Source: Mermis nigrescens (lineage: Eukaryota; Nematoda; Enoplea; Mermithida; Mermithidae). Taken from it: a stretch of 64,000 nt of DNA. Shown piece by piece: positions 1-35,085 of the stretch (positions are counted from its first letter, which is position 1; every line of letters begins with the position of its first letter). The notes beneath the pieces are model-generated. The model saw only the letters and a program-made list of their open reading frames with translations, searched no databases and was not told the DNA's origin. Where the stretch lies: positions 11,709,456 through 11,773,455 of the forward strand of contig JAVLUZ010000142.1 in assembly GCA_036768485.1 (NCBI GenBank), given 5' to 3'. Made by a program: the position numbers and the translations under genes.

Positions 1-571
1 CCATGGGCGAATCGTAGGGAATATCGGTTTGCGAAGAAAACACAGAAGCTGGAGTACTCGAGCTAGTTGGTTTTGACTTAGGTTCCGTGTCAGGCGCATT
101 GACCAGGCCCAAAACTGGGTCGGCAACGGTCTGCGATTCCTGAGCATAGAACATTGGATTTTCGAAAACGTTAACGTGAGCCATCGCATCTGTTACAGAA
201 GCGATGGTAGTGGCCGCAGCTATGGCCGCTGGCGGTTGCGGAGCTGGGCCATAAAAGTCCTCAACTGTGATTAACTCTTCGCCATTTGAATCAACTTCAG
301 CGTCAGCAGCTGTGCTGGTCGACTGTCCTTGAGGTGGCTTACTAGTCGACAACGGTATGCGCACTCTAGCTTTCGGGCCGCTAGCCTTAATATACAGTTC
401 ATCGCCTGTAAACGAAACCAACATGGGTTTTCTATCATCAGTAATGCGATTATCTTGCGTGCACCCTTCTATCAGTATAAAAATATCGATAGTTATGAGG
501 GCGTCCATTGCTAAATAATGCTGCATGTCCCGAGTTAAGGGTAAGCTCTCACGCCTGTCCGAAATTATCAG
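1..571 (-). pseudogene. Exonuclease C-terminal part (Exo III) and low-complexity tail, partial
   Basis: An open frame reads leftward from about 571 through base 1 with no stop, so it continues beyond the window; its first ATG is at 526-524. The start of the frame has a Ser-Asp-Arg-Arg stretch followed by Leu-Thr-Arg-Asp-Met-Gln and the motif YLAMDALITIDIF. This matches the Exo III Tyr-x3-Asp motif and following helix of RNase D/EXD-type DEDDy exonucleases. After about 60 residues the sequence becomes Pro/Ala/Ser/Thr-rich and looks disordered. It sits one nucleotide out of frame with the upstream exonuclease fragment (549-1385), so the domain is split by a one-base lesion. The 3' end and its real stop are not visible. 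Confidence 0.7.
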
Positions 572-1385
572 GCGCGTTCGGATCAATATACATGTCAAAA
601 AAGAATTCGGCCAAGCGCTTTAATGAGTGCGACTGCGCTTTAATGCGTAAACGACACGTAAACGCTCTCGCCAATGGCTGAATGTCAATGAAATTTGCAA
701 TGAATGGATCTTTCCAGTGCAGTTTATTGCGAATTTCTGCATCCGGAATTGCCAAAATTTCCTCAAAAGTTGGCCCGTAAACATGGAAATACGCAAGTCG
801 ATCTTGCGTCGGGTCATAACAAACCATATACACGTTAGGTAAATGCGTTTTGAGCAACTGGTGAAGCCTGAACGTGGGTTGCGGGAACTTTGCTAGATCC
901 CAACAGAACACATGGCCATTCGCACTCGCAACTTGGACGTAGCGTACGAATAGGCCATGGAGGTCCTGGTAAGTGGGACATAGTTGCTGAAAACGCAAGT
1001 CCCAGGTCTTATAATGCCTGCCTTTTCTGTCATTAACAAATTCGGAGTCATAGCCTAAGAATAAAGTGCCATTTGTCATATTCGATGGCTGAATTAACGC
1101 CAAAATGGCGCCAAACGACTTCTGGTCATTGGAGATTATGACGGTGGGTAGAAGTCTGTTCTTTGGTACATGAGGGGTTACCAAAGGAAATCTACCAAGC
1201 CTATTCTCCCACCAGAGTTGTTGGTCGTTAATACGCTTTTTATGATTTGTGATTTTATGTGCTGCTTTATGCTTTATCCATTTTGCGGTAAGTGATTCTA
1301 GACCGCCAACACGACTATTATCGTTTTGGGGCAGCGGGTCTGGTACAACCAAGCCCCGCTCCAAAGCCACACTGGTCAAGGCCAA
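549..1385 (-). pseudogene. DEDDy 3'-5' exonuclease-like domain (Exo I and II) downstream of Gypsy integrase
   Basis: A 278-residue open frame follows the integrase in the position where some Gypsy elements carry env, but no signal peptide or membrane segment is seen. Residues 109-116 (FLGYDSEF) resemble Exo I (Asp-x-Glu). Residues 185-200, containing CYDPTQDRLAYF, resemble Exo II (Asp195). Residues 231-240 (NFIDIQPLAR) resemble the conserved Asp-led stretch, and 253-263 (HSLKRLAEFFF) the Ser-Leu-x-x-Leu helix before Exo III. Exo III follows in the next frame (1-571). Order and spacing fit RNase D/WRN/EXD nucleases. The frame is open up to about 1408, so it may originally have been fused to pol. 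It could instead be a separate third ORF; biochemical activity is unproven. Confidence 0.7.
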
Positions 1386-1410
1386 ACGAAACTCGTCTAG
1401 GGACGCGGGA

Positions 1411-2544
1411 TCACGCCCTCAAATTTGCATCGGCGACCAGCTGCCTCCAGCAATGCCTCCTTGCTTGGGGTACCTTGTGCAGCCATGGGTCTGCAAAAGG
1501 AAAAACATTAGATAATGGTACGGCATGTGCTGTTTTAGAACCATTTAATAAACGTACAGGTGCGCAGTCCTTAGCTTTTTGTTCCCTGCCCGGTAAATCC
1601 TCAAAACTTATGACAACTGCCGGGGCAAGAGGGCGATGTGGTAATTTTACCAACACAAAATCGCCAGGGACATACGCATGTTTTTCCACAATTAAATCAG
1701 AATAAGGTAGTTTAGGTTCAGGCAAAAGTCTATTCCTGTGGACGAGATGAGTGATCAGAGGATTATAGACATATGCGATTTTCGCAGTTTCAGGCATAGG
1801 TAAGTCAATAATTTGGTATGGCCCAACACGCTTGGGTGATAGTTTACCGATTTCTGGTTGAATGACTGAGGTATTATTAAGATAAACTATATCCGAGAGA
1901 TTAAAATTTGTGTGCGTTACGGACTTGTCATATTGCGATTTTTGCTGCTTACACGCTTGAGTTAAATTTTGAGACGCGATTTCATGCAGATCTTGTAAAG
2001 TCAGCTTTAAATCAATGACATATTTTTCCGCAACAGATGGTAAATTCGGATTTATTACGAAGTCATTTATAAGTAAAGTGTCAAGAGGAAATGCTGGTTC
2101 ACGACCATAAAGCATTTCAAAAGGAGATATATTAGTCGATGATTGCGGAGTCGCGCGGTATGCAAATAATGCGAAAGGTAGAAATTGCTCCCAATCATAC
2201 TGGGAACGCGCACTCAACTTAGACAAACAATCAATCAAGGTGCGATTATAACGTTCCACCAACCCATCACACTGGGGGTGATATGGGGTTGTAAAAATTT
2301 TCTGAACGTTTAATAGTTTGCAAACTTCCGAAATGAGGGTAGATGTAAAATTTGACCCCTGATCTGTCAAAAATTTCTTGGGAACTCCATAACGTGGTAT
2401 AATTTCTCTTAGTAAAAAATTTGCAATTGTTGTTGCTTTTATGTCAGAAACAGCAAAAGCTTCCACGTATTTTGTAAAATAATCCATAAAAACTACAATT
2501 TGGTCATTTACGGAGGGGGTCGCGGCATTTGCAAGCAATCGCAC
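1411..2544 (-). pseudogene. Gypsy integrase core, GPY/F motif and PWWP/Tudor-like C-terminus
   Basis: This frame holds most of the integrase catalytic core: the DYFTKYVEAF strand (residues 21-30), second catalytic Asp in LTDQGSNF (Asp61) and catalytic Glu in ERYNRT (Glu97), with about 35 residues between them. The first catalytic Asp lies in the preceding frame (2508-2996). Residues 237-246 (PKRVGPYQII) are the GPY/F motif that follows Gypsy integrases. Residues 291-353 begin GDFVLVKLP, then PAVVIS, and end VPLSNVFPF; this pattern resembles PWWP/Tudor chromatin-binding folds. It begins one base out of frame with the zinc-binding part because of a C-run at about 2513-2517. The stop near 1411 is followed directly by the exonuclease frame. 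Confidence 0.88.
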
Positions 2545-3347
2545 GCAATGAGTTCAAAGGGCGCGGAATCTTTGATTGGTTGCAACGGAACGGATGTGGA
2601 ATTTAATGTGACCTTATGTTGTAAGCACACATCACAATTCCGACACCACACAATCACATCATTTTCCATGCGCGGCCACCAGTAACGCATTTGTATGGCG
2701 GGCAAGATTTTGCGCGATGAAAAATGAGCTCCGAAAATAGAGTCATGAAATTCCGTTAATATAAAACTACGCAGAGATTTGGGTATGACTATTTGATGAA
2801 CGACAGTTGGTGAACGCTTAGGTTGGAAACGACGAAAAAGTACATCATTTACGAGAAAAAATTCGTCACGATATTTTTTTGTTGTTAAATCATTCAATGT
2901 GATGCGAATTTTATGCAATTTGTCATCTGCACGTTGCTCAGCGAGTAAACGCGCAGGAGTTAGCATTTCAGCTTTTTCGGCATCGGTAAGTAACAAGCGT
3001 TCGCAAAATGTAGGTGGTTTAGAATTTGTAGGATTGGTTTGCGCAGTAGAATTATTATTTTGCGCATTTGGATGATTAATTGGTGCAGTAGGTGCATTAT
3101 CGCGCGATTGGTCAGGTGGAACCGATTCATCATCTGATTCAGAATCTTCCGATTCTAAATTTGCGATGTTAACGATATTTTTGCGCTCTACTTTATATTT
3201 GCATTCTGCATGATCATATTTAGGATGTCGTGAAAGAAGATCAGCTGCGCAGTTATATGCACCAGGAACATAGACGATATCATATTCGTATTCCTGTAAT
3301 TTGAGACCCCAACGGCGTAATCGACTCGATGGGTCTTTAACATTTAC
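2508..3347 (-). pseudogene. Gypsy pol: RNase H tail, linker and integrase zinc-binding domain
   Basis: The frame continues that of the RT/RNase H segment directly after an in-frame TAA at 3350-3348. It begins with a typical RNase H end (SSRLRRWGLKLQEYEYDIVY, then an ADLLSRHP tether-like motif). An acidic and Asn-rich linker follows, then the integrase HHCC zinc-binding module: HDSIFGAH, an RYWWPRM helix and CRNCDVCLQHK. It stops right after ELIACDCLQMP, which contains the first catalytic Asp of the integrase. A methionine-initiated sub-frame starts at 2996, but the continuous reading indicates this is simply the middle of pol. Confidence 0.85.
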
Positions 3348-5189
3348 TTACCAAGTTAATGCTTGATGGTCAGTTTCGACAATAAATTTTTTACCGTAAA
3401 GATAATGTCGATAATGCTTGATGGCCCACACTACCGCTAACGCTTCTTTTTCTGAAGTAGCATAGTTACATTCAGCAGAATTTAGTACGCGACTAGCGAA
3501 GCTAAGAATAAAACGATTTTTAGATGGTAAATGTTTTTGCGTCAAAATAGCACCTAACGCATAGTTACTTGCATCAGTTGTTAAAATAAATTGGTGCTCA
3601 TCATCGAATTTCGGTAATTGGAAAATAGGTGGGGACGTAAATGCTTTCTTCAGAAGCTCAAATGCGGTTTGGTGTTCAGCCTTCCAGCAAAATTCGACAT
3701 CTTTACGAAGAAGATGGAATAACGGTTTAGCGATTTTAGCAACATCTTTAACGAGTTTCTTAAACCATTGGACTAAGCCAAGGAATTTCTGCAAGGATTT
3801 AACGGTTTTTGGCACGGGAAACGAGATTAAATCTGCGACTTTGGACATATCAGGAGCGATGCCCATTGCACTTATGCTGTGGCCCAGAAATTTTACCTCT
3901 GCATGCGCAAGATGGCATTTATCAGGCTTTACACGTAAGTTTGCCTTTTTAAGAGCAATGAAGACATTTTCAAGATCTTTTAAATGTTCTTCGAAAGTAC
4001 GTGAAAAAATAATTATGTCATCAATGTAAACGAGACAAGATTTCCAATTTAGACCTGCGAGCACGAGCTCCATTAGTCTTTGGAAATCTGCGGGTGCATT
4101 TTTTAAGCCAAAAGGTAAAACTTCAAATTCGTAATGACCAACAGGACATATAAATGCTGTTTTTTCGCGAGATTTATTATCGAGTGGAATTTGCCAGTAT
4201 CCAGATTTTAAATCGAGTGTGCTAAAATATGCAGCATTGCCTAAGGTGTCAAAATAATTGTCTAATTGTGGAAGAGGATAAACTTGCGTTTTAGTAATGT
4301 CATTTAACCATCGATAATCGACGACTGGCCTAAGGGAACTGTCCTTTTTCCCAATGAGAAATAATGGACTTGCCCATGGGCTAGTAGTAGGTCGAATAAT
4401 TTTATCCGCAAGCATTTCATTTATAATTTTCTGCATGGATTCTCTTCTAGAATGCTCAACACGATAAGTTTTTCCAACAACGGGTGGATTATCCCCTGTG
4501 TCAATATGATGTTTCATCAAGGGGGTACGTCCGAGAGGTTCATTTTTTAATGCAAAAATTGAGTCGTATTTTAAACAAAGTTCACGAATTTGTTGCTGCT
4601 GTCTAGAATCAACGGCGGAGCCGTTTAAAGCTTTATTTATTGATGCAAAAAGTTCTGGTGTCCTATCATCCAAAGATGAAACGTGTGACACGACTTCGGC
4701 ATCAGTGGTTAAAGAACCTATTATTTCACCAGAGTCAATGCGAATTGGCGCTTTAGAGATGTTACAAACGCGAACAGGTATTAAAGGTTGTGAAGCATCG
4801 ACTATAGACGGAGCAACAAAAAGTGAAGTTTTTTCCATAAAATCAGGATTTGGTTCGGATAATGCGAAGTCAAAATTGCAAGAACCGTGACTTATATAGC
4901 CAGGTGTAATTAATTCATGCCTAGGTTGTATAATAACAGGCTCAGGTAGCGAAACATGCACACACACAACACCAGAGGTGGTTGCGTTGGGTTTCGCGCG
5001 AAATTGCAATTTTTCGTGAGATGAAAGTAAATTAACCTTTATGCCGTTTATAAAAGCACAACGCTCAGTAGGATTAACCCACATGAGTGCGGATTCGCAA
5101 AAATCATATCCTAAGAGCATGTCTTCCGGCAAATGATCAATTATAGCTACTGGGGTAGAAATAGATTGTTCCGCGATTGTTAAAGTCAT
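3348..5189 (-). pseudogene. Gypsy pol: protease tail, reverse transcriptase and RNase H
   Basis: The 613-residue frame starts inside the aspartic protease C-terminal half (MLLGYDF at residues 24-30 is the Ile-Leu-Gly-like motif). RT follows: SPWASPLFLIGKKD (270-283), VVDYRWLN (289-296), FSTLDLKSGYWQI (322-334), FGLKNAPADFQ (360-370) and the catalytic VYIDDIIIFS (387-396). RNase H follows with TTDASNYALGAIL (537-549), ATSEKEALAVVWA (577-589) and TDHQALTW (606-613). It ends at a TAA where homologues read on; the same frame continues past it, so this is a point nonsense mutation. Relative to gag the frame is +1, within the protease, so expression would need a frameshift or the copy carries an indel. 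Confidence 0.93.
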
Positions 5190-5196
5190 ATTTACT

Positions 5197-8100
5197 TTAT
5201 AACGAACGACTGCCAGTGATTTCGCCTACACCATGTACGACTTGTGAAACTTGTTTAGGTGGTAAATTAAAACCAAGACGTAAGAATGCAGACGTGGTCA
5301 TCATGGTGACCTGTGAACCCGTATCGATGAGAGCAGGTACGTCAACGCCATGAACTTTAACGAGGATGGTGGGTAAATTTGTCCCAGCATGGCTTACGAT
5401 AGGAATATTAGGATCTAAAGTCTTAGACGGAGGTAGATTGATTTTTTCGTAAGTTGCGAGACGACGTTGTAGACGTTCGTACTCTTCAAGAAATTCTTGC
5501 GACGCAAATAAATTAGGACGCGCGCTAGATTCTGGCCCTTTCGCAGTAACCGTGTTCACATCATGAGGAGATGTAAGGGTTGGCTGCGGTGGGGGCACAT
5601 TCGTGGCGGGTTGGTTATCTGCAGCGTATGTGACATATGGGCGATTAAAATTATTGTCGTTGCGATAGTTCGAGTTATAGTATGTTCCACGCTGTTCATT
5701 TGGAAATTGCACAAAAGGAGTATTTTGACGCGGTTGATTATTATAACGATTATCGTAACGCAAATTTTGATAATTAGCACGCGAATTTTGGTAATAATCA
5801 TTACGATTTTGCCGAAAATTCGATCGTGATTGCTTTGATTCAAAGCGATTATCATTATTCGCATAGTTAGACGAACGATGTTGACTAGAGTTACGATATC
5901 GTGATTGAGATCGATGTCTATTTTGCGAATTCGAACGCGATGGCGAACGATTTTGGCGCGAAAAAGAACGCGATTGGCTGTGATTGCGAGCCATAGAATT
6001 AGTATTCCGATCAGCTTGGTTATTATAATTAGCATTATTAGACGTTTCTTGCCTTTGACGCATGAAACATTCCTCATAAATGTGACCTATGCGCTTGCAA
6101 AAGGTACAATATTTACGAGAAGAATTTTCTGGTTTCTCAGCACGCGATGAGCGATGAAACGTTCTATGACGTGAACGATTTGAATCATTTTGGTTAGATG
6201 CGCGAGGAGTATCTTTAGGTACTACGCTGCCTACGGGAGCAGCTGTTACCGATACGTAAGGCGTTACTGCCTTTTTATCCTCAAATTCTTTATTAGCAAA
6301 TTCAGCGCTAAGCGCATTGTCCAAAAATTCAGCTAATGATGCTCTAGGTTTTTTGTGATATGCCTCTTTCGAAATGTGTGGTAATAAACCTTGTTTTAGT
6401 TGATGTCGCATTAAATTATTAAAATGTGGCGAGTCAACTTCAAGATATGGATCAGATTTAATTAACTCTTCGCGAAGCGAGAGATAATAAGCTTTAACCG
6501 ATTCGTTAGGCTGCTGTTTGTGCGACAAAAAGCGATTAAAGAGCGCACCGGTGTCCATTGGACAAAATTCGGTTATTAGCGCTTGCTTCATTTTCGAATA
6601 AGATTGTTGTATATCAGCAGGTAACGAATGGTATAAACGCAAAACATAAGGGTCAAGAAATCCAGTTGCGAATTTTAGACGATCAGCTTTGTCAATATCA
6701 TAGGTATTGGCAAGTGATTCAAATTCTGCAAAATATGCTTTTATGTCCGTTTTTTCGCCATCAAAAAATTTTTTATTTGCAATTGCAAATTGCATCTGCT
6801 GCAAAAATGGTCCGCGATTCAAGGAATCAGCGAGACGTGAGTCACCACGCGAGCTTTCAGATGAAGAACCTGAACTATAACGATGACGTCGTCTGCGCGA
6901 TCGACTTTTGCGACGCGAACGACGACTGCGCGGGCGATCATAGCTGTTAGATGAGCTGTCGTCAGAGAATTTGACATGTTTTCTCCTACTAGACGATTCA
7001 GATAGAGGAGCAGATTCGTTTTGCAGATGTGCAGATTCGTTGTTAATGCCAGATAAGTTTATCTCAACAGGTTGCATTTCGATATTAGAAGAATGCAAAA
7101 TAGGATTATTAGGTGGTATTTCCACATTTATAGGATTAGGTACATAATTATTTGGTAAGATTTCGCCTTGAGGTGGGAAATACTGCAGCGGTGGTGGATT
7201 CAATTGCTGCTGCGAGTTCGCAATAGAAGGATTAGGTACGAAAGAAGGCGCATTACGATTTAAGGGCAGCGACGGCCGAGATCGCGACGTCTGCGAAATC
7301 GATACCGACGGCTGCGAAATCGTAGGTATATTCTCCGAAAAACCCGAGTTTTGCACTGGTTGCAAACCCGTGTTTACAGGATTCTGTGACAAATTAGATA
7401 TCTCCGGCGCGCGATTCGTACAATTTTGAATGATATTTTCAGGAACAGTTTCCGAAGGTGAGCGTGAATTTGATGCGCTATTGCCAGTGGACAACAGTGA
7501 AGATGCCCTATGCGTACTTTGCGCACGATTCGCACTTTGCGCATTAAATTCAGAAAAATTTGCGCTATCGATTGAGTGGTTAACGCGCTCAGATACATTA
7601 TTTTCTATGCGATTCAGAACTGGTTGGGGTTTAAGCATAGTGCTTAGCTCCAGACGCAGTTTACGCATTTCATCCGCATTTTCCTTTTTATCTTGATCAA
7701 CGCGCGTAGAAAGGTCCGAAAATTGCAAATGAATAGCTTGTAGCGCTTTCAAAATAAGATCATTAGTCACATTAGCATTAGCACGCTCTCTGTCGGCATT
7801 CATGCTGCGACTATGATTACTTTCTACGTCAGAATCGTGATTTTCGCGCTCCGAACTGGTTTCAGGATTATTTGCCGTGTTAATGGTAGTCGTATTATCA
7901 ATCATTGTATGATTTGATGAATTGTCAATATTAGGGTCCGATCTAGTTATCGAAGTTTGATTAATGCGAGATCGCATGGTACTCAATGATAGTTCATCTT
8001 CAGACTGTGTATTACTCGCGGCATTTAGTGACGCGGGTAATTTATCATTATTCGCCTTAGTCGTTACGTCTCTCGTAATTGTGTCATTACTCGCAGAATT

Positions 8101-8226
8101 ACTCGCGCTATTAGAGTCAACAGGCGCGGTAGGTAATTGGCGAGCTGAAGTAGGTGGCGTAGAAGGTTTTTTCAATTTAGTGGGCGGTGTCCGCAAAACC
8201 TTTTTCCTGCCATTTTTAGGTATCAA
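5197..8226 (-). CDS. Gypsy Gag with SR-rich tracts, zinc knuckle and protease DTG
   Basis: A 1009-codon frame, intact in itself. Residues 1-430 are Ser/Thr/Asn-rich and probably disordered, with a charged stretch near 165-195 that may be a coiled coil. A first Arg/Ser-rich tract lies at about 410-465. The capsid-like retrotransposon gag domain spans about 485-650 (begins FFDGEKTDIKAYFAEFE). A CCHC knuckle, CTFCKRIGHIYEEC, is at about 705-718, and a second RS-rich tract follows. Near residue 965 the LIDTGSQVTMM motif is the aspartic protease active site, so protease starts in the gag frame. The frame ends eight bases before the pol frame opens. The long RS tracts are unusual for Gag and recall SR splicing factors. 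Confidence 0.9.
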   Translation of the reverse strand: MIPKNGRKKVLRTPPTKLKKPSTPPTSARQLPTAPVDSNSASNSASNDTITRDVTTKANNDKLPASLNAASNTQSEDELSLSTMRSRINQTSITRSDPNIDNSSNHTMIDNTTTINTANNPETSSERENHDSDVESNHSRSMNADRERANANVTNDLILKALQAIHLQFSDLSTRVDQDKKENADEMRKLRLELSTMLKPQPVLNRIENNVSERVNHSIDSANFSEFNAQSANRAQSTHRASSLLSTGNSASNSRSPSETVPENIIQNCTNRAPEISNLSQNPVNTGLQPVQNSGFSENIPTISQPSVSISQTSRSRPSLPLNRNAPSFVPNPSIANSQQQLNPPPLQYFPPQGEILPNNYVPNPINVEIPPNNPILHSSNIEMQPVEINLSGINNESAHLQNESAPLSESSSRRKHVKFSDDSSSNSYDRPRSRRSRRKSRSRRRRHRYSSGSSSESSRGDSRLADSLNRGPFLQQMQFAIANKKFFDGEKTDIKAYFAEFESLANTYDIDKADRLKFATGFLDPYVLRLYHSLPADIQQSYSKMKQALITEFCPMDTGALFNRFLSHKQQPNESVKAYYLSLREELIKSDPYLEVDSPHFNNLMRHQLKQGLLPHISKEAYHKKPRASLAEFLDNALSAEFANKEFEDKKAVTPYVSVTAAPVGSVVPKDTPRASNQNDSNRSRHRTFHRSSRAEKPENSSRKYCTFCKRIGHIYEECFMRQRQETSNNANYNNQADRNTNSMARNHSQSRSFSRQNRSPSRSNSQNRHRSQSRYRNSSQHRSSNYANNDNRFESKQSRSNFRQNRNDYYQNSRANYQNLRYDNRYNNQPRQNTPFVQFPNEQRGTYYNSNYRNDNNFNRPYVTYAADNQPATNVPPPQPTLTSPHDVNTVTAKGPESSARPNLFASQEFLEEYERLQRRLATYEKINLPPSKTLDPNIPIVSHAGTNLPTILVKVHGVDVPALIDTGSQVTMMTTSAFLRLGFNLPPKQVSQVVHGVGEITGSRSL

Positions 8227-8694: not shown

Positions 8695-10177
8695 TGTTAC
8701 ACATTCTTAGATGGCCAAAATGATAAATTTTTGGATCGAAAAATAATTTTACGATGATTGATCAGCTCGGCTGTAGCTAGCAGCCTAAAGGAGGGAACGT
8801 CCAATGTAAATGTAGAGCCGCCTTATGTCTACAAAGAATCGACATAGGACGGATACATTACCTTCGAGATTTACCTAGGTACGTAGGTACTTAAGTCTAC
8901 GCTTAGTGCTGGCCCCGATCGCGCGGCTCTGAATGGCTTTCGATCTTTGGACCCTTACAGACCTTACGGCTTCGATCCCCTCAGCCCTAATATTGCTGGC
9001 TGCTTCTTGTCGGGTGATCTCAGCAGCTACGCCCTAAGACCTAAGGCTACCTACCTAGTCTCGGTATTTGCCGCGGAGGTCAGTTGACCTATCTCAAGCT
9101 CAAGTTGTTTATTTAACTTATTTTCAATCAGTGCCTGATCAGAAATGTTTTTGGTTCCTAATTTGTGTAGCACGCTGAACAATGAAAACAACAACAACGA
9201 GCTCTACGCTGATCAATCATCCTTAAAGATTAAATAATATTTTTGATCAATTTTTGGCTTGAGAAATAAATTATGATTTCCGAATAAAATAAACTATCAT
9301 ACGAAATTTACCTATCAGTCCACTAGATGGGTGGAAATCCTCGACGTAGGGATGGTGGCCGACCTAACCCTCGGTATAACCAAAACCACTGGGTAGGTTT
9401 TCTCTATTTTAATTCGACGTAGAATTCACGGCCTATAGCCGGACAACAAAATACGCAAAAGAAAAACGATAATGTACAGATTATACAGTCGAACAACCGG
9501 CCAACGAAAAAACCAAAAGCCAGACTAAACTACAACGTTACGTACACTGAGCCTCAAGGACCATTACAGTAAATTAAACAAAGATCAAATTAACGTAATA
9601 CTGATAAGCTTTTATCTCAGATCGAAAGTTATCGATTACACAAGCGGTATGCATGAAACAATTACTATTATCATACACTTAACTCTATGCTACCGGACAA
9701 GTATCTAAATGTTTTTTATTATTGAAAATTTGGGGAAATAATGGGAAGACCGAAGGCATAGCCCACAGTGCACTATCATAGATACAGTCCTACTCACAAG
9801 TAACGTTACATTGTTGCTGGCCATACATGCATTTTTGACATGCGCATGCCATGCGCTTGGCATGCGCATGTCAAATCAATCACAATTAATAGGTACATAT
9901 GCATAGTCAATACACCTGCTCATTAGGCGTTTGGGGCCGACATGCCATATGCATGCCATGCGCATACTATGTGCATGCCATGTGCATGCCAAGTGGTCAA
10001 AATTCGGTCAAAAAACACGCGCATGCCATGCACTTGCCATGCGCCTGGATGCCATGCGCGCATGGCAAGCATGTAATGTTACTTGTGGGTAGGACTGTAG
10101 CTACTAGTATTGGCTATGTGATGGCTATCGCGAACTGCTAAGGCGAGTTCGCCTACCGTGTAACTCTCGCAGTTACA
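8695..10177 (-). repeat. Gypsy 5' LTR (interrupted by a MITE)
   Basis: The sequence matches two other regions in the window (36710-37798, and 38113-38787 plus 42663-42879), showing it is an LTR. The right edge reads GCAGTTACA on the plus strand, giving TGTAAC at the LTR start in element orientation. The left edge is placed at TGTTACAC (8695) by the matching TG...CA ends. Without the 313-bp MITE it is about 1.17 kb. The left boundary is less sure than the right. Confidence 0.75.
9785..10097. mobile_element. TA-flanked MITE (Tc1/mariner-like) inside the LTR
   Basis: Comparison with the solo LTR at 37700-37730 shows an extra 313 bp bounded by TA on each side. The ends are inverted repeats of about 27 bp with two mismatches, starting CAGTCCTACTCACAAGTAAC on the left and CAGTCCTACCCACAAGTAAC on the right (reverse complement). 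The interior is built of CATGCGCATG-type palindromes. There is no coding capacity. A TA duplication points to the IS630/Tc1/mariner superfamily. Confidence 0.88.
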
Positions 10178-14600: not shown

Positions 14601-17600
14601 AAAATTTGTTCGCTCATACAAAGACGTTATAGGAGATCTTTGTACATGCACAAAGAAGCTCGTACAAAAAATAGTTTTGGCTAATAATAATGCACCACTT
14701 AATTTACTAGTCCCCCATTTCGGGATTTCACCCTTCCTCAACTCTGGACCTTGGAAAACTATGATCCTATGCAGGACTAAATACTTTACGACACGGCATT
14801 TGCATATTTTCCCATGATGCTTAGAACTTGATTTCTGAAGAGGGCCTGTCATTTAGTGACAAACTGTACTGTACACTCAAACATTCTCGAAATATAATAA
14901 CGCTTTTATGCTGATTAGCAGATATGGGTGTCGAAATTGCATCCGTCAACTCATTGAAAATATGTAAGTAGCATAAAAATGCACTAAAGTCGTTGAGAAA
15001 AAGAAATTAAGCTTTAAAATGCTAATTGCTGGAAATGAGCTTTAATATGCAATACATCCCTAAATCAGAGCCTCGCTAGATTCTACTGTAACAAATTCGA
15101 GATATGCACGAGTAAAAAACCTACTTACCCATCGGATAAAGGCCCTTATCATTCTGCTTGCAATTTCTAGACAGATGCCCGCTTTGATGGCAAACAAAAC
15201 AAATAGCAAATGGGAAGCCTAAAAAAAGAAACCGTCTAAGCTACTAAGTCAGTCAATAAAAATAATGTAAAGAAATTAAAAAATATACTGGTTACTATGG
15301 CATAGAGAAATTCTTTACGTCAGGTTAGATCGAATTGTAAAAAATGAAAAAATCACAAGTATTAATCATTTCCCGAAATTAGCTGATGGAATAAAAATAT
15401 CTCTAAATTTTGCAGACTATTCACAATTTTTATTCCCTGCAATATTAAATCATAATAAAGGTAGGCAGTTAAAGAAAGTACGACAATAAAATGACTGATG
15501 GGAATCATATGTGTACAAGATCAGGGTCAGCAGGGGGCGGGTAAAATCTCAGAAATCCAAAACAGTAAATTTAACGATCACATTTTTTGTTGTTTAAACA
15601 AGAAAATGGTCAAAATAGCCTATAAAACGTCTTTTCATGGTATTTCGCATTTCCAAAGCATTTTTAGCCCATTTTGACTGAATTATATAACTTTAACACT
15701 AAAAAATACAGAAATTCATCAATTTTTGGCGCTTTTTGGGTAAAAAAATACATAATCCAGAAAAAATTTTGGGACACACATGGTCAGCCCGTTAAGTGAA
15801 TTAGGCGTATATTGATCTAGACGTAGAATACCTATTATAAAGGCTCGACAGACGTGCAAATAGACACGCGGAGTAAACTAATATGAAAAAGTATATTATA
15901 TTATTACGATTATTATATATTGACCACTACCAGGCGTGACATCGGTCTCAGAGATGGAATTTAGATTTAGCTGAAGCCGCGAAACTTATCCTGTAATTAG
16001 GGATGTGCCGGTTAACCGGAACCGGAACCGACTGGAACCGACCATTTTTTGGAACCGGAACCGATTTTTGATATTCCAAGAACCGAACCGATTTTTTGAT
16101 ATTTCTACAGAACCGGAACCGATTTTTTGATTTTCTAAGAACCGGAACCGGAACCGATCTTTTTTGGAGTCGGTTCTCGGTTTTTTAAAATTAGAGTTAA
16201 AAATCGAACTTCATAAAATTTAGTGAAGACATGAAGCAGTAATTCAATCTTTTATTACCCAAAAGTTTACAGACTAAAACTTAGTATTGTTCCGGGTAGA
16301 TTATATTTTAAAGATTACAGTCGTTCTGCTTTTTCGCCATGTAGCCTGTTTCTGAGAGGGTCGTGAAATGATTCCAGCGCAACTGAACAGCTGTTCCGAT
16401 GGAACGCTTGTAGCTGGTGCTGCAAGCAGGGGCGAATCTAAGGGGGCGGGGGGCCGCCCTCCCCATTTAAAAATATTTGGCGAGATAAACAATGGATATA
16501 CAATTTGCAATTATTTTTTGGCCCTCAGTGACCATAATTTCTCAAATTTTTCGGCGCTACGCGCCGGATGATATTTATTAATGACATTTATTTACTTTCT
16601 TGGCCACCTGGAAGCCATTTTCTGTTCATGTAGGTTTCAAAACAATTTTAGCAGCAGAAACAGCTATTTTTGTATACTTTTCTTCTATTTTCAATTAAAA
16701 ATTTCGATGTTTCGCATCAAATGCTATAAATACAGTAAATCAAGCTGTAAATCATGCTTCTAGACGTCTATCCGTCTTAATCTCACAAATTTTCCGGCGC
16801 TTCGCGCCACGGTTTTTTTGTATTCGGCAAAGATTTTTCCCGATGTACAAAGACTTTTCGGGATCATCTTTGTACATGTCAAACGGGCCTTGTACAAAAA
16901 ACTGCTTCACGCCAGAATTCTGATAAAGTCAAAGAATTTTAGTGACTTTTAGCACAAAATTGTCGAAAATTTTAAAATTTTAAGAGAAATATTGCGTCAA
17001 AAGTGATTTAATGTAAATGTATACATTGTAAAACGCCGAAAAAACGCTGTTTCGCGCGTTGAGGGCAAATTTTTGGACCTATTTTTAACTGTTTTTGGAA
17101 AAGTTGGGATACTGCCCCCTTAGGAAAATCCTAGATTCGCCACTGGCTGCAAGACACTGCTTAGCTATAAACGCGAGAATCGGCAAATTCTTTGACTTCT
17201 CTTTCCACCATTGCAGTAGATCTTCGTCAGGAATTAAGCATTTCGATTTCGTATAAGCCTCTAATTAAGAAACACATAGATAATATTCAGTGATTTATAA
17301 GTAAATTGTCAACTAGACGTGAAACTTATTTGAACGTGCAGTTGCCAGATTAAAACGACTTCCTGAATAATTTATCTTTCGATTACATCGTCATATCTTC
17401 CGGTGAAGTCAGGCTATCAAGAGCGTACATACTTTAACACAGGAACCGAGAACCGGAACCGGCGGTTCTCTAGTTGAAGAACCGGAACCGGAACCGAACC
17501 GACGGTTCCAACTTACGTAAGAACCGGAACCGAAGTTCTTGTTTTCCAAGAACCGGAACCGACTTTTTTGAAAAACCTGGAACCGGAACATCCCTACCTG

Positions 17601-23614: not shown

Positions 23615-26600
23615 TCGTTTTTTAACAACAAAGATTTATTGCAAAACGTACAAGACATGGTAAAAATAAAGACACAGCAAATGCGATACAAAGATATGAT
23701 AAAACGACATACGACTAAAACGTCAGCAACGGGACACGCAGTCACGAAAGTGAAAAACTTACGCATGCCCCTTCACATGAACAGAAAAATCAAAAGCATT
23801 GAGTTTGCGTTTGAAAATTTCTAAGCTAGGTGAATTTACAACATCAACTGGAAGTGAATTCCACAGATTCACATATCTATGACTGAAATCATACTTGAGA
23901 ATATCTGAACGAGCTACTGGAACAGTCAGTTTAAGGTTATTGACAGAGCGAGTATAGTTGCGATTAAAAGCGAAAAACTCGTCACAGAGAATGTGTGATT
24001 TTCCATTAATAATCTGATAATAAAAGGACAAAGCAAAACGAATACGAGGCGTATTTCGAGACGTTCTAACGACAGACTTTTTAAACAATCATTATATGAC
24101 AAAACCACTGTTAAAACCAAAAACACAACGGGTGAACTTGTGCTGAACTCGCTCGATACGATCAATATCTCAAATACGATAAGGACTCCAAACGGTACAG
24201 CAGTACTCTAAAAGCGGACTAACATATACAACAAAAGCACGAGACAAAATTTTATGATCACGAGAAAAGAATCACTTCAGTATCAGACTGGATCGCTGAG
24301 AAGCTTTTTTTATCACTTCATGACAGTGCTGCTGAAATTTCAAATTTTGAGACATTAGAACACCTAAATCACGGACACAGTCAGAATCAGAAGGTAAAAG
24401 TTGATTTCAATAAAATATTCATGTTTAGGATCTTCATAACCCATGTACAAAACTGAGCATTTATCAATAGATATCTGAAGCTGCCATTCACGCGACCATG
24501 TATAAAGCTTATTGAGGTCGCTTTGAAGTATAGTTTTAGAAGAGGACAAATTATACATTTTAACATCGTCAGCAAATAACCGAATATGACTACTCATATT
24601 ATCACATAAATCATTTACGTAAATCAGAAAAAGGGTTGGCCCTATCACGCTCCTGCAGGACGCCGCTAGTTACATTAAAGCTATCTGAAAAAGAACTATT
24701 AACAACTACGCACTGAGATCGAGAGGATAAAAAAGATTTAAGCCAGTTGAAAAGAAAACCATTTAGACCAGAAGCAGAAAGTTTATGAAGTAATTTTGTG
24801 TGCGATAAAGAATCGAAAGCTTTTTTAAGATGATAAAAATTACATCGACAATAGATTTTCTATCAATAAATTTTGCCCATTCGTTTTTACACTTTAGCAA
24901 TTGCATTTCACATGATCGACCTTTTAAAAATCCAAATTGAAGAGGAGAAAGCAAATTATTTATTTTAAGTAATCCACAATCTTTTTATTAACAATTTTTT
25001 CCATAATTTTACAAGGAGAGCAACACAACGAAATCGGACGATAATTTTCTACACAAGCAGAATCACCTTTATTTTTGAAAATTGGAATTACGTTTGCTTG
25101 ATACCACAATTTTGGAATTCAACCTGATCGAAAAGAAGAATCTTTAAGAAGGGTGATTATTCTTTGGTTGAAAATTATCGTCCAATATCTCTTTGTTACA
25201 TCACTTGTAAAATTATGGAGTATATCATAAACGGAGCTTCAATTGCTTCTTTAAAGTCGAAAACTAATTTCTTTTCATGTCAGTTTGGTTTTCAAAAGGG
25301 AAAGTCATGTGAAACTCAGCTTTTGAAGTGTACAAACATGTGGGTTAAATCACTTAACGCATCTATTCCTATTGATGTTGTTTATGTCGATTTTAGTAAA
25401 GCCTTCGATTCTGTCGTTTATTCTAAATTGATAGAGAAGTTGAAGCATTATGGGATAAATGAAATGCTATTAAAATGGTTAACTTCTTTCTTGACAAATT
25501 GTACACAAAAGGTCAAAATTTTTGACGCTCTTTCTGATAGAAAACCAGTTATTAGTGGCGTACCTCAAGGTAGTGTTTTAGGACCCTCTTTGTTTCTGTT
25601 GTTTGTAAATGATTTTGTTCAAGCTGTTGAGCATAGTGAAGTCTATTTCTTTGCTGATGATTTAAAGCTCTTTAATTTTCTCAAAATTATACTTTTGTTG
25701 CGAAAAGATTTAGATAAGTTGGTTTCCTGGTCTGAAGAAAATCAGTTAAGCATATCTCTCCCTAAATGTTCTGTGTTATATCTAGGTAACGCTAATCCTA
25801 AAGTTACATATCACATAAACCATTTTTTGTTATCTGATGCAGGTTCCTCAATTCGAGATTTAGGTGTTTCCTTAACAACAAACTTATCATCTAGTTGTCA
25901 TTGTACTAATATATCATGCAAAGGCTTTGAAAATGAGTGCTTTGATTTTCAAATGTTTTGAATCCATGTGATCCTAAAATGTTGGTTCTTGCTTTTAAGA
26001 ATTATATTCGGCCTTTAGTAGAGTATGCTCCAACTGTATGGAGCCCCTGCTTTGCTTTCTAGATATCAACAGGGTTGAACGGGTTCAGCGAAAATTTACT
26101 AAAAGGTCAATTGGATATATGGGACTTTCTTATGATGAAAGGTTAAAAGCCTTAAATTTAGAGAGGCTTGAACTCCGTAGAATTTATTTTGATTTAATTG
26201 TTACGTATAATATTATTCACAATAATCTCTTGCCTTCTGAAGATTTTTATAAGTTTTATGGTCATTCGCGTACTAGAAATGCATTTGCAAATCAGATCTA
26301 TTTAGAAAAATTTCGACTCGATTGTAAAAAGTATTGTTTTGCTACTAGATCAGCTAGAATTTGAGAGCGATCTTCCACAATATATTCGAAGTTCTCCAAA
26401 TGTTGAGACATTTAAGATAAATTTGAAAAAGGTTGATTTCGGGAATTTTTCGATGGGGCACACGTGAGCGCAATCTATTTGCCTGTGTGTCCAGGACATT
26501 TCGCATTTTATTTTATTTTCCTTGCGACTTTTGTTTTACACCTTGTGTTTTTTTCTCCGAATAAAGTATTAGTATTAGTATTAGTATAAGTTTCAAAAGA

Positions 26601-31386: not shown

Positions 31387-34209
31387 TTAGATACGCCCCT
31401 TGAGAAAAATGGATAAATCAAATTGTTTCAATTTCATCGTAAAAATGTTCGAATTAGCTGAGCAGATGATATCATCAGGCAAATAATTCCAGACAGAAAT
31501 CACACGATTGCAAAATTCAAATTTTCTAACATTTTTGTTTACACGGTTAACGTAAAGTTTGCAAGAATTTACAGCACGATTTGAGTTTACATTAAATGTG
31601 AAGAAGTCTTCAACAGGTAACAAATTATCCTTGATTATAGAGCGTGTCATTGATAAATCACTTTGCATTCTACGTAATTCGAGTCTCTCCAAGCCCAATT
31701 CCTTTAATCGGGCATCGTAGGAGATAGTTTTATCAGAAAAAATTCGTTTGGTAAATTTTCTTTGGACATTTTCAACATTATTTATGTCACATAACAGATA
31801 AGGATTCCAAACAGACGAACCATATTCCAAAATTGGTCGGACATAGGTTGTAAAGGCTTTTACTAACAAAGTTTTATCTCTTGAAACAAAACTCCGTAAA
31901 ATCAAGTTTGCAATTCTCATGCCTTTTTTTACAATGTTTGTACAATGAGTTCTAGAAGATAAATCTTTACTTATTAAGACACCAAGATCCTTCATCTCGG
32001 ATATATCATGTGGGATTTCAAAATTATCTATACCGTAAGAGTGTTTGGGATTAGATTTTCCTAAATGCAAAACAAAACATTTGCTGAGTGAGATCTTAAG
32101 CTGCCAGATATCAGCCCACCTCTTAATATGCATTAGATCATTTTGCAAGTCCAAAAAATTGGAAGCTGAATTAGATATTTTAACATCATCAGCAAATAGC
32201 GAAATTGAGCTGGTACTTTGAAAATCACATAAATCATTTATGAATAACAAAAAAAGGGTAGGGCCTAAAACACTACCCTGTGGCACCCCACTGGAAACAG
32301 GGAGCGGAAGAGACAATGAATCTCCAACTTTAACCCTTTGGGATCTATTACTCAAAAAGCATTTTAACCAATTTAGGCAAAAACCACTTATGCCATAGGC
32401 AGCTAATTTTATAAGCAGTTTTTCATGCGAAACTGTATCAAAAGCTTTACAAAAATCGATATAAACAATATCGATTGGGCAATTTTCATCAAGATTTTTG
32501 GACCACTGATTTTTGCACTTTAAAAGTTGCAGTGTACAAGATTTATTTTTTCTAAATCCAAACTGATTTTCAGAAAGCAAATTATTTTCATTTAAATGGG
32601 TAGTTAGGCTAATATTAATTATCGATTCCATGACCTTACACAGAACACAACAAAGGGACACGGGCCGATAGTTTTCTATGGATGATAAGTCACCTTTCTT
32701 AGGTATAGGCACAACAATAGCTTCCCTCCACAGGTCGGGGATGCACCCTGTCCTGTAAGAAACTTCAAAAATTGACATCAAAGGTCTAACAAGGACTAAT
32801 TTTAGCTTTTTCACAAAATATGCACACAGGCCATCAGGGCCAAGTGACAATGAAGGTTTTAGTCGATTTAGAGCATCCAAAATTGTAAATAAGTCAAATT
32901 TGCAAGAAACACTATGATTACGGTTAATTTTATCAGGAAATACAGGTAAAACATTATTGTCATTTACAAAATTGTTGGCAAAATTTGTATTAAAAGCATT
33001 TGCTTTGTCTAAATCATCCACAATAGTGATGCCGTTGCTTTTCAACAATGGAATTTTCTTTTTATTATTTAATCGATCATTTACAAAAGAGAAAAAGTTT
33101 TTTAAATTATTCGACTTTAGTAACTTTCCTTCCTCATTTGCAAGATGTTCATTCATCAAAGTTTTTATATTTTTGGTCAATTTCTTACATTTCTCTAACG
33201 TTTTAGCATCCCTATTAATTTTGTATTTTTTCCAAAGTTTACGCTTTGTAGCCTGCATTTTTCGTACAGAATTTGGCAGAAGATTTCTGCGCATTTTCTT
33301 TTTCAGTGGAACGAATTCGGAAATAGCTGTGTTGAGAATGGACAAAAAAGCCTCGTAGAAATCATTAACACTTACACAAGACGAAAAAATTTTTTCCCAT
33401 TCAACAGATGCCAAGAAAGCTTCAATTGCTTGATAATTTGCCTTTTTGAAATCAAGCGTTATTAGATTTTCATCCTCATTGCTATTAAATGGCAAATTAA
33501 ACGAAATTATTTCATGATCACTACTAGCAAAAGGTTCGTTAACAGAAACATTAAAAAGGAGTTCACGAGATGTACTCAAAATAAGATCTAAAATATTTAG
33601 ATTTCGGTTTGGTTCGTTTGTCATTAAATTGAGACCTAGGTTTACAAAACATTCATAAAATATTTGTGTAACTGGGTTCCTGTATGCAGAATGAGAGGCA
33701 AAGTTTAGGTCAGGTAGGTTAAAATCGCCTAGTATTATGCATTTTTTCGTGTTTTCAATGTACTTTTCAAGAAAAAGACACAATTTTTGAGCATATTGAA
33801 TATCATATTTTGGTGGCCTATAGCAAAGTATAAACCGCACATATTCATCATTGGAGTGAAGTTCACAAATAAGAGTTTCAGGGCAATCAAATGGTTCCTT
33901 AAGAGTAATATTACAAATTTTCAGTGCATTTTTATACAATATAGCTACCCCACCACCTCTATAATCCAGCCTGTCACATCTATAAATGGAATAAACAGAA
34001 GAAGTACAAAGAAGACCATCAGAAATTGTATCATTTAACCAAGATTCTGTTACAAAAATGATATCGTAGGTTTCAGAAATGAGTAAAGCATGAAGTTCAG
34101 GTAATTTGTTCACTAGACTTCTAGCATTAAATAAGGCACAATTCAGTACATTTTTATCATTTTCATCATTTTTTGAAGTTAAATCGGGTTTAACAGGGGC
34201 GTTAACTCC
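31387..34209 (-). CDS. LINE ORF2: AP endonuclease and reverse transcriptase
   Basis: Open from the codon after the ORF1 stop to a TAA-type end at 31387, about 940 residues. Endonuclease motifs: NARSLVNK, VTESWLND (catalytic Glu), GGGVAIL, YRPPKYD, GDFNLPDLNF and SSDHEIISF. RT motifs: ENYRPVSLCC, NQFGFRKNKSC, IDFCKAFDTVSH, GVPQGSVLGPTLF and FADDVKIS (catalytic Asp pair). The C-terminus includes SVWNPYLLCDINNVENVQRK and ends IFLKGRI. No ATG occurs between the ORF1 stop and the endonuclease, so initiation must be by readthrough, reinitiation or a non-ATG codon. The reading is otherwise undamaged, indicating a recent copy. Confidence 0.93.
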   Translation of the reverse strand, partial: GVNAPVKPDLTSKNDENDKNVLNCALFNARSLVNKLPELHALLISETYDIIFVTESWLNDTISDGLLCTSSVYSIYRCDRLDYRGGGVAILYKNALKICNITLKEPFDCPETLICELHSNDEYVRFILCYRPPKYDIQYAQKLCLFLEKYIENTKKCIILGDFNLPDLNFASHSAYRNPVTQIFYECFVNLGLNLMTNEPNRNLNILDLILSTSRELLFNVSVNEPFASSDHEIISFNLPFNSNEDENLITLDFKKANYQAIEAFLASVEWEKIFSSCVSVNDFYEAFLSILNTAISEFVPLKKKMRRNLLPNSVRKMQATKRKLWKKYKINRDAKTLEKCKKLTKNIKTLMNEHLANEEGKLLKSNNLKNFFSFVNDRLNNKKKIPLLKSNGITIVDDLDKANAFNTNFANNFVNDNNVLPVFPDKINRNHSVSCKFDLFTILDALNRLKPSLSLGPDGLCAYFVKKLKLVLVRPLMSIFEVSYRTGCIPDLWREAIVVPIPKKGDLSSIENYRPVSLCCVLCKVMESIINISLTTHLNENNLLSENQFGFRKNKSCTLQLLKCKNQWSKNLDENCPIDIVYIDFCKAFDTVSHEKLLIKLAAYGISGFCLNWLKCFLSNRSQRVKVGDSLSLPLPVSSGVPQGSVLGPTLFLLFINDLCDFQSTSSISLFADDVKISNSASNFLDLQNDLMHIKRWADIWQLKISLSKCFVLHLGKSNPKHSYGIDNFEIPHDISEMKDLGVLISKDLSSRTHCTNIVKKGMRIANLILRSFVSRDKTLLVKAFTTYVRPILEYGSSVWNPYLLCDINNVENVQRKFTKRIFSDKTISYDARLKELGLERLELRRMQSDLSMTRSIIKDNLLPVEDFFTFNVNSNRAVNSCKLYVNRVNKNVRKFEFCNRVISVWNYLPDDIICSANSNIFTMKLKQFDLSIFLKGRI

Positions 34210-35085
34210 CTAAGGGCGAGGCATGCGCACTTTATATTGTTTCAATTCATACGAGTTACGGTCAATAAACCAATTTTCCTCGCCCGCGTCCCGTTTTTCC
34301 TTCAAATCAGCATTCAATCGACGGAGAGCCTCACGTTGTTGCCAGGTGCGATCCGGCCGGGCGTAGATTTTGGATTTACGCCCCTTATCCGCGTATTTGG
34401 TGGCCAACTGAATCAACTCGGCCCTGGAGGACTCCGAGTCGCACTTGACCTTGATGATGCGGGGCAAGGTGGTGCCATCCTTGTACGATTTGACCTCCGG
34501 GCCGGAGCGCCGAATGCCGACGATTTTTTTGGGATCGAACCCGGCGGTGGTGACGTACTGCTTCACGTCGTCCTCCAAGCTGCTGTCGTCGCCAATGGGA
34601 ACGAAATTCTCCAGGACGACGGTGGTTTTCTTGGAATCTGCCTCCAAGGCGTCCTTCACTGCCGAAACGACCACTTTGTTGATGTCGATATCGGCCATCC
34701 GCGGCGGCCTCATAGGCGCGAAGTTAGGTGCCGCAAAATTAGGAGCCGTGAAACGCGGTGCCTGCGATTGGGTGACCTGCTTGGCTAAAGAGTCCAACTG
34801 TTCTTTAATAGATGCTTCGAGAGAGTCGAAGCGATTTTCCAAAGTGGAAACTTTCTGCTCCACTGTCAAAAGTTTCTTACCAACCGGTAAGCACATCGGG
34901 CAGAGAAACAGCTGGTCCAACAGTGCCAAGACGCTGTATTGGGCGTCGTTCAAACCTACGCAAGCCGTGTGAAACCAACAGTGGCAAAGGTCGCATTGAA
35001 TCCCCTTGGAATTCGGGTCGACCGCTTCGTCGCATTTCGGGCATTTGCACACTTTATCCGAAGCCAATTTCACTTTACGACCCAT
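34210..35085 (-). CDS. LINE ORF1: PHD-finger nucleic-acid-binding protein
   Basis: A 291-codon frame from ATG at 35085 to TAG at 34212-34210. Residues 13-60 form a PHD-type C4HC3 finger (CKCPKCDEAV, CDLCHCWFHTACVGL, LFLCPMC). A coiled-coil-like stretch follows (about 72-108), then a Pro/Ala linker and a C-terminal RRM-like or RNA-binding region (IVGIRRSG ... RIIKVKCDS). ORF1 proteins of CR1-like LINEs bind RNA and act in the ribonucleoprotein. GC content is clearly higher than the surroundings. Same reading frame as ORF2. Confidence 0.9.
   Translation of the reverse strand: MGRKVKLASDKVCKCPKCDEAVDPNSKGIQCDLCHCWFHTACVGLNDAQYSVLALLDQLFLCPMCLPVGKKLLTVEQKVSTLENRFDSLEASIKEQLDSLAKQVTQSQAPRFTAPNFAAPNFAPMRPPRMADIDINKVVVSAVKDALEADSKKTTVVLENFVPIGDDSSLEDDVKQYVTTAGFDPKKIVGIRRSGPEVKSYKDGTTLPRIIKVKCDSESSRAELIQLATKYADKGRKSKIYARPDRTWQQREALRRLNADLKEKRDAGEENWFIDRNSYELKQYKVRMPRP

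Follow-up and report, generated by a model that had tools for sequence, protein, structure and literature searches.

A Ty3/Gypsy retrotransposon of the nematode Mermis nigrescens with a PWWP-type integrase tail and a separate DEDDy exonuclease reading frame

Related retroelements and the architecture of the Mermis element

DEDDy exonucleases encoded by a third open reading frame (ORF3) have been reported in the Juno and Vesta long terminal repeat (LTR) retrotransposons and in the Terminons of bdelloid rotifers (Rodriguez, Kenefick and Arkhipova 2017, PMC5408684), in a paper whose passages discuss whether these proteins process RNA 3' ends, are involved in silencing or act like env; the rotifer case is repeated in a passage of PMC5718144, and a passage of a 2019 paper (PMC6338049) describes the DnaQ-like exonuclease as well known among the accessory domains of LTR elements. 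Here we analyzed a 64,000-nucleotide stretch of the nematode Mermis nigrescens (assembly GCA_036768485.1, contig JAVLUZ010000142.1, positions 11,709,456 to 11,773,455 of the forward strand; hereafter the window). The minus strand of the window from 10177 to 1 is part of a Ty3/Gypsy LTR retrotransposon which, as the original prediction made from the sequence had stated, carries a DEDDy exonuclease behind its integrase. That prediction had set the arrangement against standard Gypsy elements, which end at integrase, a chromodomain or env; in view of the rotifer cases, an exonuclease of this type in an LTR retrotransposon is a known kind. The open copies of ORF3 examined in this genome keep their catalytic residues under selection close to that acting on reverse transcriptase.

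As in Juno and Vesta, so far as the passages of PMC5408684 describe them, protease, reverse transcriptase, RNase H and integrase are followed by an RNase D-like DEDDy ORF3, the LTRs have TG...CA ends, and several families occur in one genome. New here relative to the rotifer cases are the lack of a detectable dUTPase (all Juno and Vesta elements have one, whereas Pfam gave no dUTPase row at E values up to 0.1 for the gag-protease and reverse transcriptase-RNase H pieces of the window), a PWWP-type domain on the integrase (those passages report no chromodomain for the rotifer elements and make no mention of a PWWP), a long ORF3 of ~1390 codons with a large extra region, and strong purifying selection on the enzyme, whereas the same passages report no significant departure from neutrality for the extra ORFs of the rotifer elements. 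The LTRs also differ in length, at ~1.06 kb here versus 159-551 bp. Terminons, the giant Athena Penelope-like elements of bdelloids, resemble the Mermis element in being retroelements with an accessory DEDDy exonuclease ORF, according to a passage of PMC6431247. Being Penelope-like, they belong to another class of retroelement. Terminons are not known to have LTRs or an integrase.

The element spans ~14.7 kb in genome coordinates, based on the positions of its LTRs and the locations of its copies, and extends beyond the left edge of the window, to the left of which its 3' LTR lies. The 5' LTR (8805..10177, minus strand) was delimited by alignment to the 3' LTR (positions 8507-9567 of L009, the fetched window copy). 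Both LTRs have the ends TGTAAC...TTTACA, a 4-base AAAT target-site duplication flanks the element, and among 1054 aligned bases the pair show 6 substitutions, besides several 1-2-base gaps and a 315-base insert (9785..10099) that is present in the 5' LTR and not in the 3' LTR. The ends of the insert seem complementary by eye, and it is perhaps a small non-autonomous DNA transposon. Just inside the 5' LTR is the primer-binding site (8785..8804, minus strand, beginning TTGGACG...), which was assigned by position only. All of the coding pieces that follow are on the minus strand. The first (5197..8226) holds gag, a zinc-knuckle-like motif recognized by eye and the first part of the aspartic protease, with Pfam E values of 0.0016 for Retrotrans_gag, which is below the cut-off, and 1.1e-5 for the protease. 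A frame change near 5213 precedes the second piece (3348..5189), which comprises reverse transcriptase (E 1.2e-35) and RNase H (E 1.4e-28) and is ended by a stop near 3348. The zinc-binding H2C2 domain of the integrase (2508..2996, E 3.8e-19) is separated by a frame change near 2517 from the integrase core and GPY/F region (1411..2544, E 7.5e-11 for the core). The order of protease, reverse transcriptase, RNase H and integrase in these Pfam matches is that of Gypsy elements, and in copy L022 pol is one open frame. The window copy is a broken one, with frame changes in the protease, the integrase and ORF3 (two of those in ORF3 within the window), and a stop codon interrupts it where the RNase H match ends. 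On the same contig, at a distance of ~2 Mb, there is a second and 100% identical version of a 9,985-base stretch around the left part of the element that includes the left flank (copy L010, G000:C48 9710300-9720299), which implies either that the insertion lies in a segmental duplication or that the assembly holds the stretch twice.

The ORF3 exonuclease, its sister copies and its expression

In the open sister copies, the exonuclease is at the head of an ORF3 of its own, the start of which overlaps with the 3' part of pol, and not in one ORF with pol as had been predicted; pol stops ~110 bases past the opening of the ORF3 frame. Between its two stops, that frame measures 1390 codons, or 1421 in L023. 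The first ATG is residue 8 and gives a protein of ~1383 residues, in which the exonuclease (approximately residues 120-360) precedes three further parts: a variable linker, a middle region and a basic, Gln/Arg-rich tail. In the window, the N-terminal part of ORF3 with Exo I and Exo II is at 534..1507 (minus strand), as determined by ORF reading, a hidden Markov model (HMM) and alignment to copy L015, and the end of the exonuclease and the start of the linker are in the other frame at 2..547, from which ORF3 runs past the window edge. The original prediction had confined the element to 1..1409, where the exonuclease region does lie, but those coordinates are incomplete, as the alignment to L015 places ~890 further residues of ORF3 outside the window. 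It had identified the motifs correctly in both place and order: Exo I, GYDSEF, is at 1038-1055, with its catalytic Asp and Glu (DSE) at 1041..1049; Exo II, CYDPTQDRLAYF, has its catalytic Asp at 801..803, both motifs being in the ORF at 549-1385; and Exo III, the Tyr-x3-Asp motif YLAMD within YLAMDAL, is at 503..517 in the other frame (Tyr 515-517, Asp 503-505), all on the minus strand. All five catalytic residues (D-E, D and Y-x3-D) are thus present in the window, divided between two frames. The frame change that divides them is at ~534-547 and not near 570 as first proposed, and a second is near 1406-1418.

The genome (524 Mb in 860 contigs) was searched with the ORF3 of one more distant relative, or cousin. 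The 137 matches listed, at 23-100% identity, included many fragments and also long frames that stay open for 285 to 966 codons; those examined fall in lineages A (which includes the window), B, C, D and E, and two loci, L047 and L028, look like further ones. An HMM built from the DEDDy domains of ten cousin ORFs of lineages B and C scored 30.9 bits (E 1.6e-8) against the window frame alone and 57.4 bits (E 1.2e-16) against the whole ORF3 of L015, far above the best of 2000 residue shuffles (4.6 bits), and the match is thus beyond chance. The profile check with Pfam that had been proposed for this region was, in its literal form, negative for the window. The window exonuclease pieces had no match at E values up to 10 other than an unrelated beta-propeller row at 0.21, and in a sister copy PF01612 was the sole family listed and was below threshold (E 0.014, 15.6 bits versus a cut-off of 23.6), whereas several cousins passed, namely L026, L029, L034 and L055 of lineage B, L033, L039, L050 and L051 of lineage C, and L045 and L046 of lineage E (best E 3.6e-10). 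Below the cut-off were L044 of lineage D (15.5 bits), L048 (18.2) and L047 (19.0). As the A3 exonuclease profile matches WRN at 1.6e-10 despite the shortfall with PF01612, the domain is divergent rather than absent. Pfam found no match in the remainder of ORF3. The middle region has a counterpart in lineage D, to which it is 21% identical along 280 residues (E 2.4e-11).

The domain has the RNase H-like exonuclease fold, and its nearest folds are cellular DEDDy enzymes. It shares fold and catalytic residues with the WRN exonuclease, RNase D, EXD2, Nibbler/MUT-7 and Egalitarian, from which it differs in that those are products of host genes outside any retroelement, with 9-22% identity in the rows listed. 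Based on these data, the N-terminal domain of ORF3 is almost certainly a DEDDy 3'-5' exonuclease of the WRN/RNase D/EXD fold. Two other results were set aside: a first structure prediction from ten near-identical rows was discarded for its low confidence (pLDDT 35.5), and nine rows from a PDB sequence search with the window frame, all of them tRNA ligases at E 0.45-0.51, were rejected as chance. At E values up to 1, the protein collection yielded no match to the window frame among 402 candidates, and none to residues 8-430 of the L015 ORF3 among the 7995 candidates sharing most words; at E values up to 1e-5, there was none to the A3 profile among 2958 candidates. There was likewise no exonuclease match in phage records by tblastn, and none in viral contigs with the L015 exonuclease as query.

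The condition that the original prediction had named as able to refute it turned out in its favor, as the sister copies kept the region. The copy search scored 139 of 1700 candidates, and as these were the best-scoring ones, the sample is biased toward good copies. Each of the 139 aligns with 276 to 278 of the 278 residues and is 91-100% identical there, the exonuclease domain is stop-free in 135 of them, and by our own count of the listing 27 have an open frame of at least 1388 codons. Fifteen copies were fetched, including L009 and its duplicate L010, and 13 have an open ORF3, each with the complete pentad D-E-D-Y-D in one frame; across the lineages, the pentad is complete in 20 of 26 aligned rows. 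Pooled pairwise omega for the exonuclease was 0.047 in the 13 open ORF3s, versus 0.199 for the N-terminal part of ORF3, 0.311 for the linker, 0.125 for the middle region and 0.296 for the tail. The values for pol were 0.037 for reverse transcriptase (8 copies), 0.046 for RNase H (13), 0.014 for the integrase core (8) and 0.044 for the C-terminal part of the integrase (12), indicating that the exonuclease is guarded much like the replication enzymes. The low divergence of the two LTRs and the strong purifying selection on the open sister ORFs also uphold the earlier suggestion that the domain was probably functional until recently.

ORF3 is probably made from a spliced subgenomic mRNA, in the manner of retroviral env. 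Just upstream of its ATG (1484-1486) is a 3' splice-acceptor-like site, TTTTTCCTTTTGCAG (1491..1505, minus strand), recognized by comparison of copies and identical in 15 of the 15 fetched, two of which are the duplicates L009 and L010. Comparable arrangements were seen in some cousins: in L026 of lineage B, TTTCCTAG directly abuts the ATG, and in L029, L038 and L039 a TAG is located 12, 8 and 24 bases, respectively, ahead of the first in-frame ATG.

The PWWP domain of the integrase

The C-terminus of the window integrase carries a PWWP-derived domain at 1480..1665 (minus strand; residues 294-355 of the ORF at 1411-2544). Seven integrase tails from lineages C, D and E exceed the PF00855 cut-off, with E values of 3.2e-14 to 2.4e-8, and the window tail matches a profile of six cousin PWWP tails from those lineages at E 7.1e-10, the best of 2000 shuffles reaching 10.1 bits. 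Pfam alone gives the window tail E 0.0098 and 16.8 bits, below the cut-off of 25.6, and a first profile, from lineage C only, gave E 0.047 versus 1.0 for the best shuffle; the match became clear after D and E were added. The Trp of the motif is changed, the window and L015 having LAPA where six aligned cousin tails have WPA. As judged by these sequence comparisons, the window tail is the same PWWP module as that of the cousins, with the motif Trp replaced. PWWP-bearing Gypsy integrase tails are found at L033, L039, L063, L064, L066 and L067 and, in degenerate form, in the window. The two lineage B tails scanned with Pfam had no PWWP, and no chromodomain row was returned for the integrase C-terminus of the window or the cousins at E values up to 0.1. 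Omega for the PWWP tail was 0.037 in 13 copies of the window family. In the PDB, the lineage C tail of L067 matched DNMT3B, HDGF and LEDGF, and the best solved match of a lineage D tail was LEDGF/p75 (E 8.5e-5).

Chromoviruses are Gypsy elements with a chromodomain on the integrase. The Mermis element resembles them in having a domain of the chromatin-reader type fused to the integrase C-terminus behind GPY/F, and differs in having PWWP in place of the chromodomain. A second parallel is LEDGF/p75 (PSIP1), the PWWP of which binds H3K36me3 and which tethers HIV integrase, according to passages of PMC8149907; LEDGF is a host protein held non-covalently, whereas here the reader is part of the integrase polypeptide. 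The PWWP of the passages in PMC8149907 and PMC11054761 is that of LEDGF, and, judged by titles and the starts of abstracts, we recognized no description of a native PWWP integrase among the papers listed by full-text searches.

Proposed function, rival explanations and ancestry

We consider it very probable that this is a Gypsy element with a PWWP-tailed gag-pol and a separate exonuclease ORF3 that has long been inherited together with pol in several lineages, would be expressed by splicing and would trim the element's own 3' ends. In this proposal, ORF3 mRNA would be spliced subgenomically, as in the env strategy, and its protein would bind nucleic acid through the basic Gln/Arg-rich tail and trim 3' ends in the element's own replication, before integration; our guess as to the likeliest substrate is the single-stranded 3' ends of cDNA or of element RNA in the particle. 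Taken by itself, an active enzyme used in replication is somewhat more likely than not. That its precise task is to trim the 3' ends of the element itself is a tentative suggestion with less than even chances.

Several points weigh against this proposal. The splice-like site of the window family is within pol coding sequence, and its invariance may therefore partly reflect pol; among 19 cousin rows, a site is suggestive in 4 and 15 are without a clear one, in a comparison that had no chance control and in which some rows are uninformative (they begin inside the ORF, and two have no ATG). Foldseek TM-scores, model-normalized, are moderate (0.31 to 0.48). The omega values are pooled pairwise estimates from copies chosen for open frames. 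The pentad is partly lost in 6 of the 26 rows (four Exo I substitutions, one Exo II substitution and one truncation), indicating that loss occurs in some copies. In addition, the fold is common to DNA-acting enzymes, RNA-acting enzymes and catalytically dead binders such as Exd1 and Egalitarian.

One rival explanation is counter-silencing, in which the ORF3 exonuclease would trim or destroy host piRNA or siRNA in an inverted use of MUT-7/Nibbler. We regard it as unlikely, though it is the strongest of the alternatives, given that the exonuclease is about as conserved as reverse transcriptase and that its sequence is slightly nearer to WRN, a DNA enzyme. Proteins in conflict with the host are often under relaxed or positive selection. 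A further explanation is that ORF3 encodes a catalytically dead nucleic-acid binder, like Egalitarian or Exd1, that packages or localizes RNA. Egalitarian is one of the top sequence matches and a close fold match, the tail has the basic composition noted above and catalytic residues are lost in the cousin copies just described, but dead binders tend to lose the pentad, whereas here it was kept in all of the open ORF3s and in most rows, and this explanation is accordingly improbable.

Less probable still, in our assessment, is the recent capture of a host EXD-type nuclease gene by one element lineage, which had been the original prediction. In its favor, cellular DEDDy enzymes provide the nearest folds, and a probable spliced DEDDy gene with several exon-like matches was identified at G000:C728:216624-221285, with the strongest PF01612 match in the genome (E 3.1e-12). 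The exonuclease does not resemble EXD2 more closely than it does WRN, Egalitarian or Nibbler, however, and it is common to the five integrase lineages examined. Between family A and D, its closest examined cousin, the exonucleases are only 35% identical versus 59% for the integrases, which argues that the acquisition is old and not recent. The divergence of the enzyme also tracks that of the integrase, as pairwise identities of the two correlate with r 0.93 (36 pairs) or, with one copy per lineage-A family, 0.96 (28 pairs), values reached by 1 and 3 of 5000 label permutations, respectively. Trees of the integrase and of the exonuclease were made for nine elements, including two from family A, and the grouping of A with D was supported in both (100 and 99), as were two pairs of C elements (86 and 98 for integrase versus 81 and 77 for exonuclease). 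The integrase tree placed the four C elements together (90) with B beside them (72), whereas in the exonuclease tree C was not one group, and E joined B (75) in a position beside one of the C pairs (48). Our reading is based on the better-supported nodes only. The trees disagree at weak nodes about where B and E belong and whether C is a single group, and some exchange is therefore possible. Upstream of L047 (at L065), there was no open frame of at least 90 codons in the strand read and no integrase was seen. Overall, the correlation and the agreement of the trees fit a long co-inheritance of the exonuclease with pol, perhaps with some exchange. Lastly, a chance motif match or an unrelated host gene fragment, which would agree with the lack of a meaningful Pfam match for the window pieces and of a relative in the protein collection, is refuted by the profile, fold, selection and copy evidence.

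Elsewhere in the window, two large ORFs at 31387-35085 (minus strand) resemble, by eye, those of a non-LTR (LINE-like) element, one of 291 aa with a Cys-rich, PHD-finger-like start and the other of 908 aa with endonuclease and reverse transcriptase motifs, and a fragment at 25164-25961 (plus strand) resembles, by eye, another LINE-like reverse transcriptase. Repeats with AGAACCGGAACCG in several places occupy 16080-17561. Rfam and tRNA scans of the window gave no match.

Taken together, the comparisons raise the prospect, to which we give slightly less than even chances, that these elements are an undescribed and diverse Ty3/Gypsy group with an integrase bearing a LEDGF/HDGF-type PWWP reader of its own and a co-inherited DEDDy ORF3 that would be spliced and essential for replication. 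Such an integrase would incorporate the kind of tether for which lentiviruses depend on a host protein. In such a group, the exonuclease may act on cDNA 3' ends ahead of PWWP-guided integration, and the window family, having lost a key residue of the PWWP reader, may have changed its choice of target. Our results indicate that LTR retrotransposons can retain a DEDDy exonuclease durably, selected at approximately the level of reverse transcriptase, and not as a passenger; the passages of the earlier rotifer work gave no clear sign of benefit. Since this one genome contains many open copies, the use of the enzyme to the element becomes testable. The PWWP integrases, if confirmed, would amount to a natural experiment on integration with a self-supplied tether, comparable to the pairing of LEDGF with HIV.
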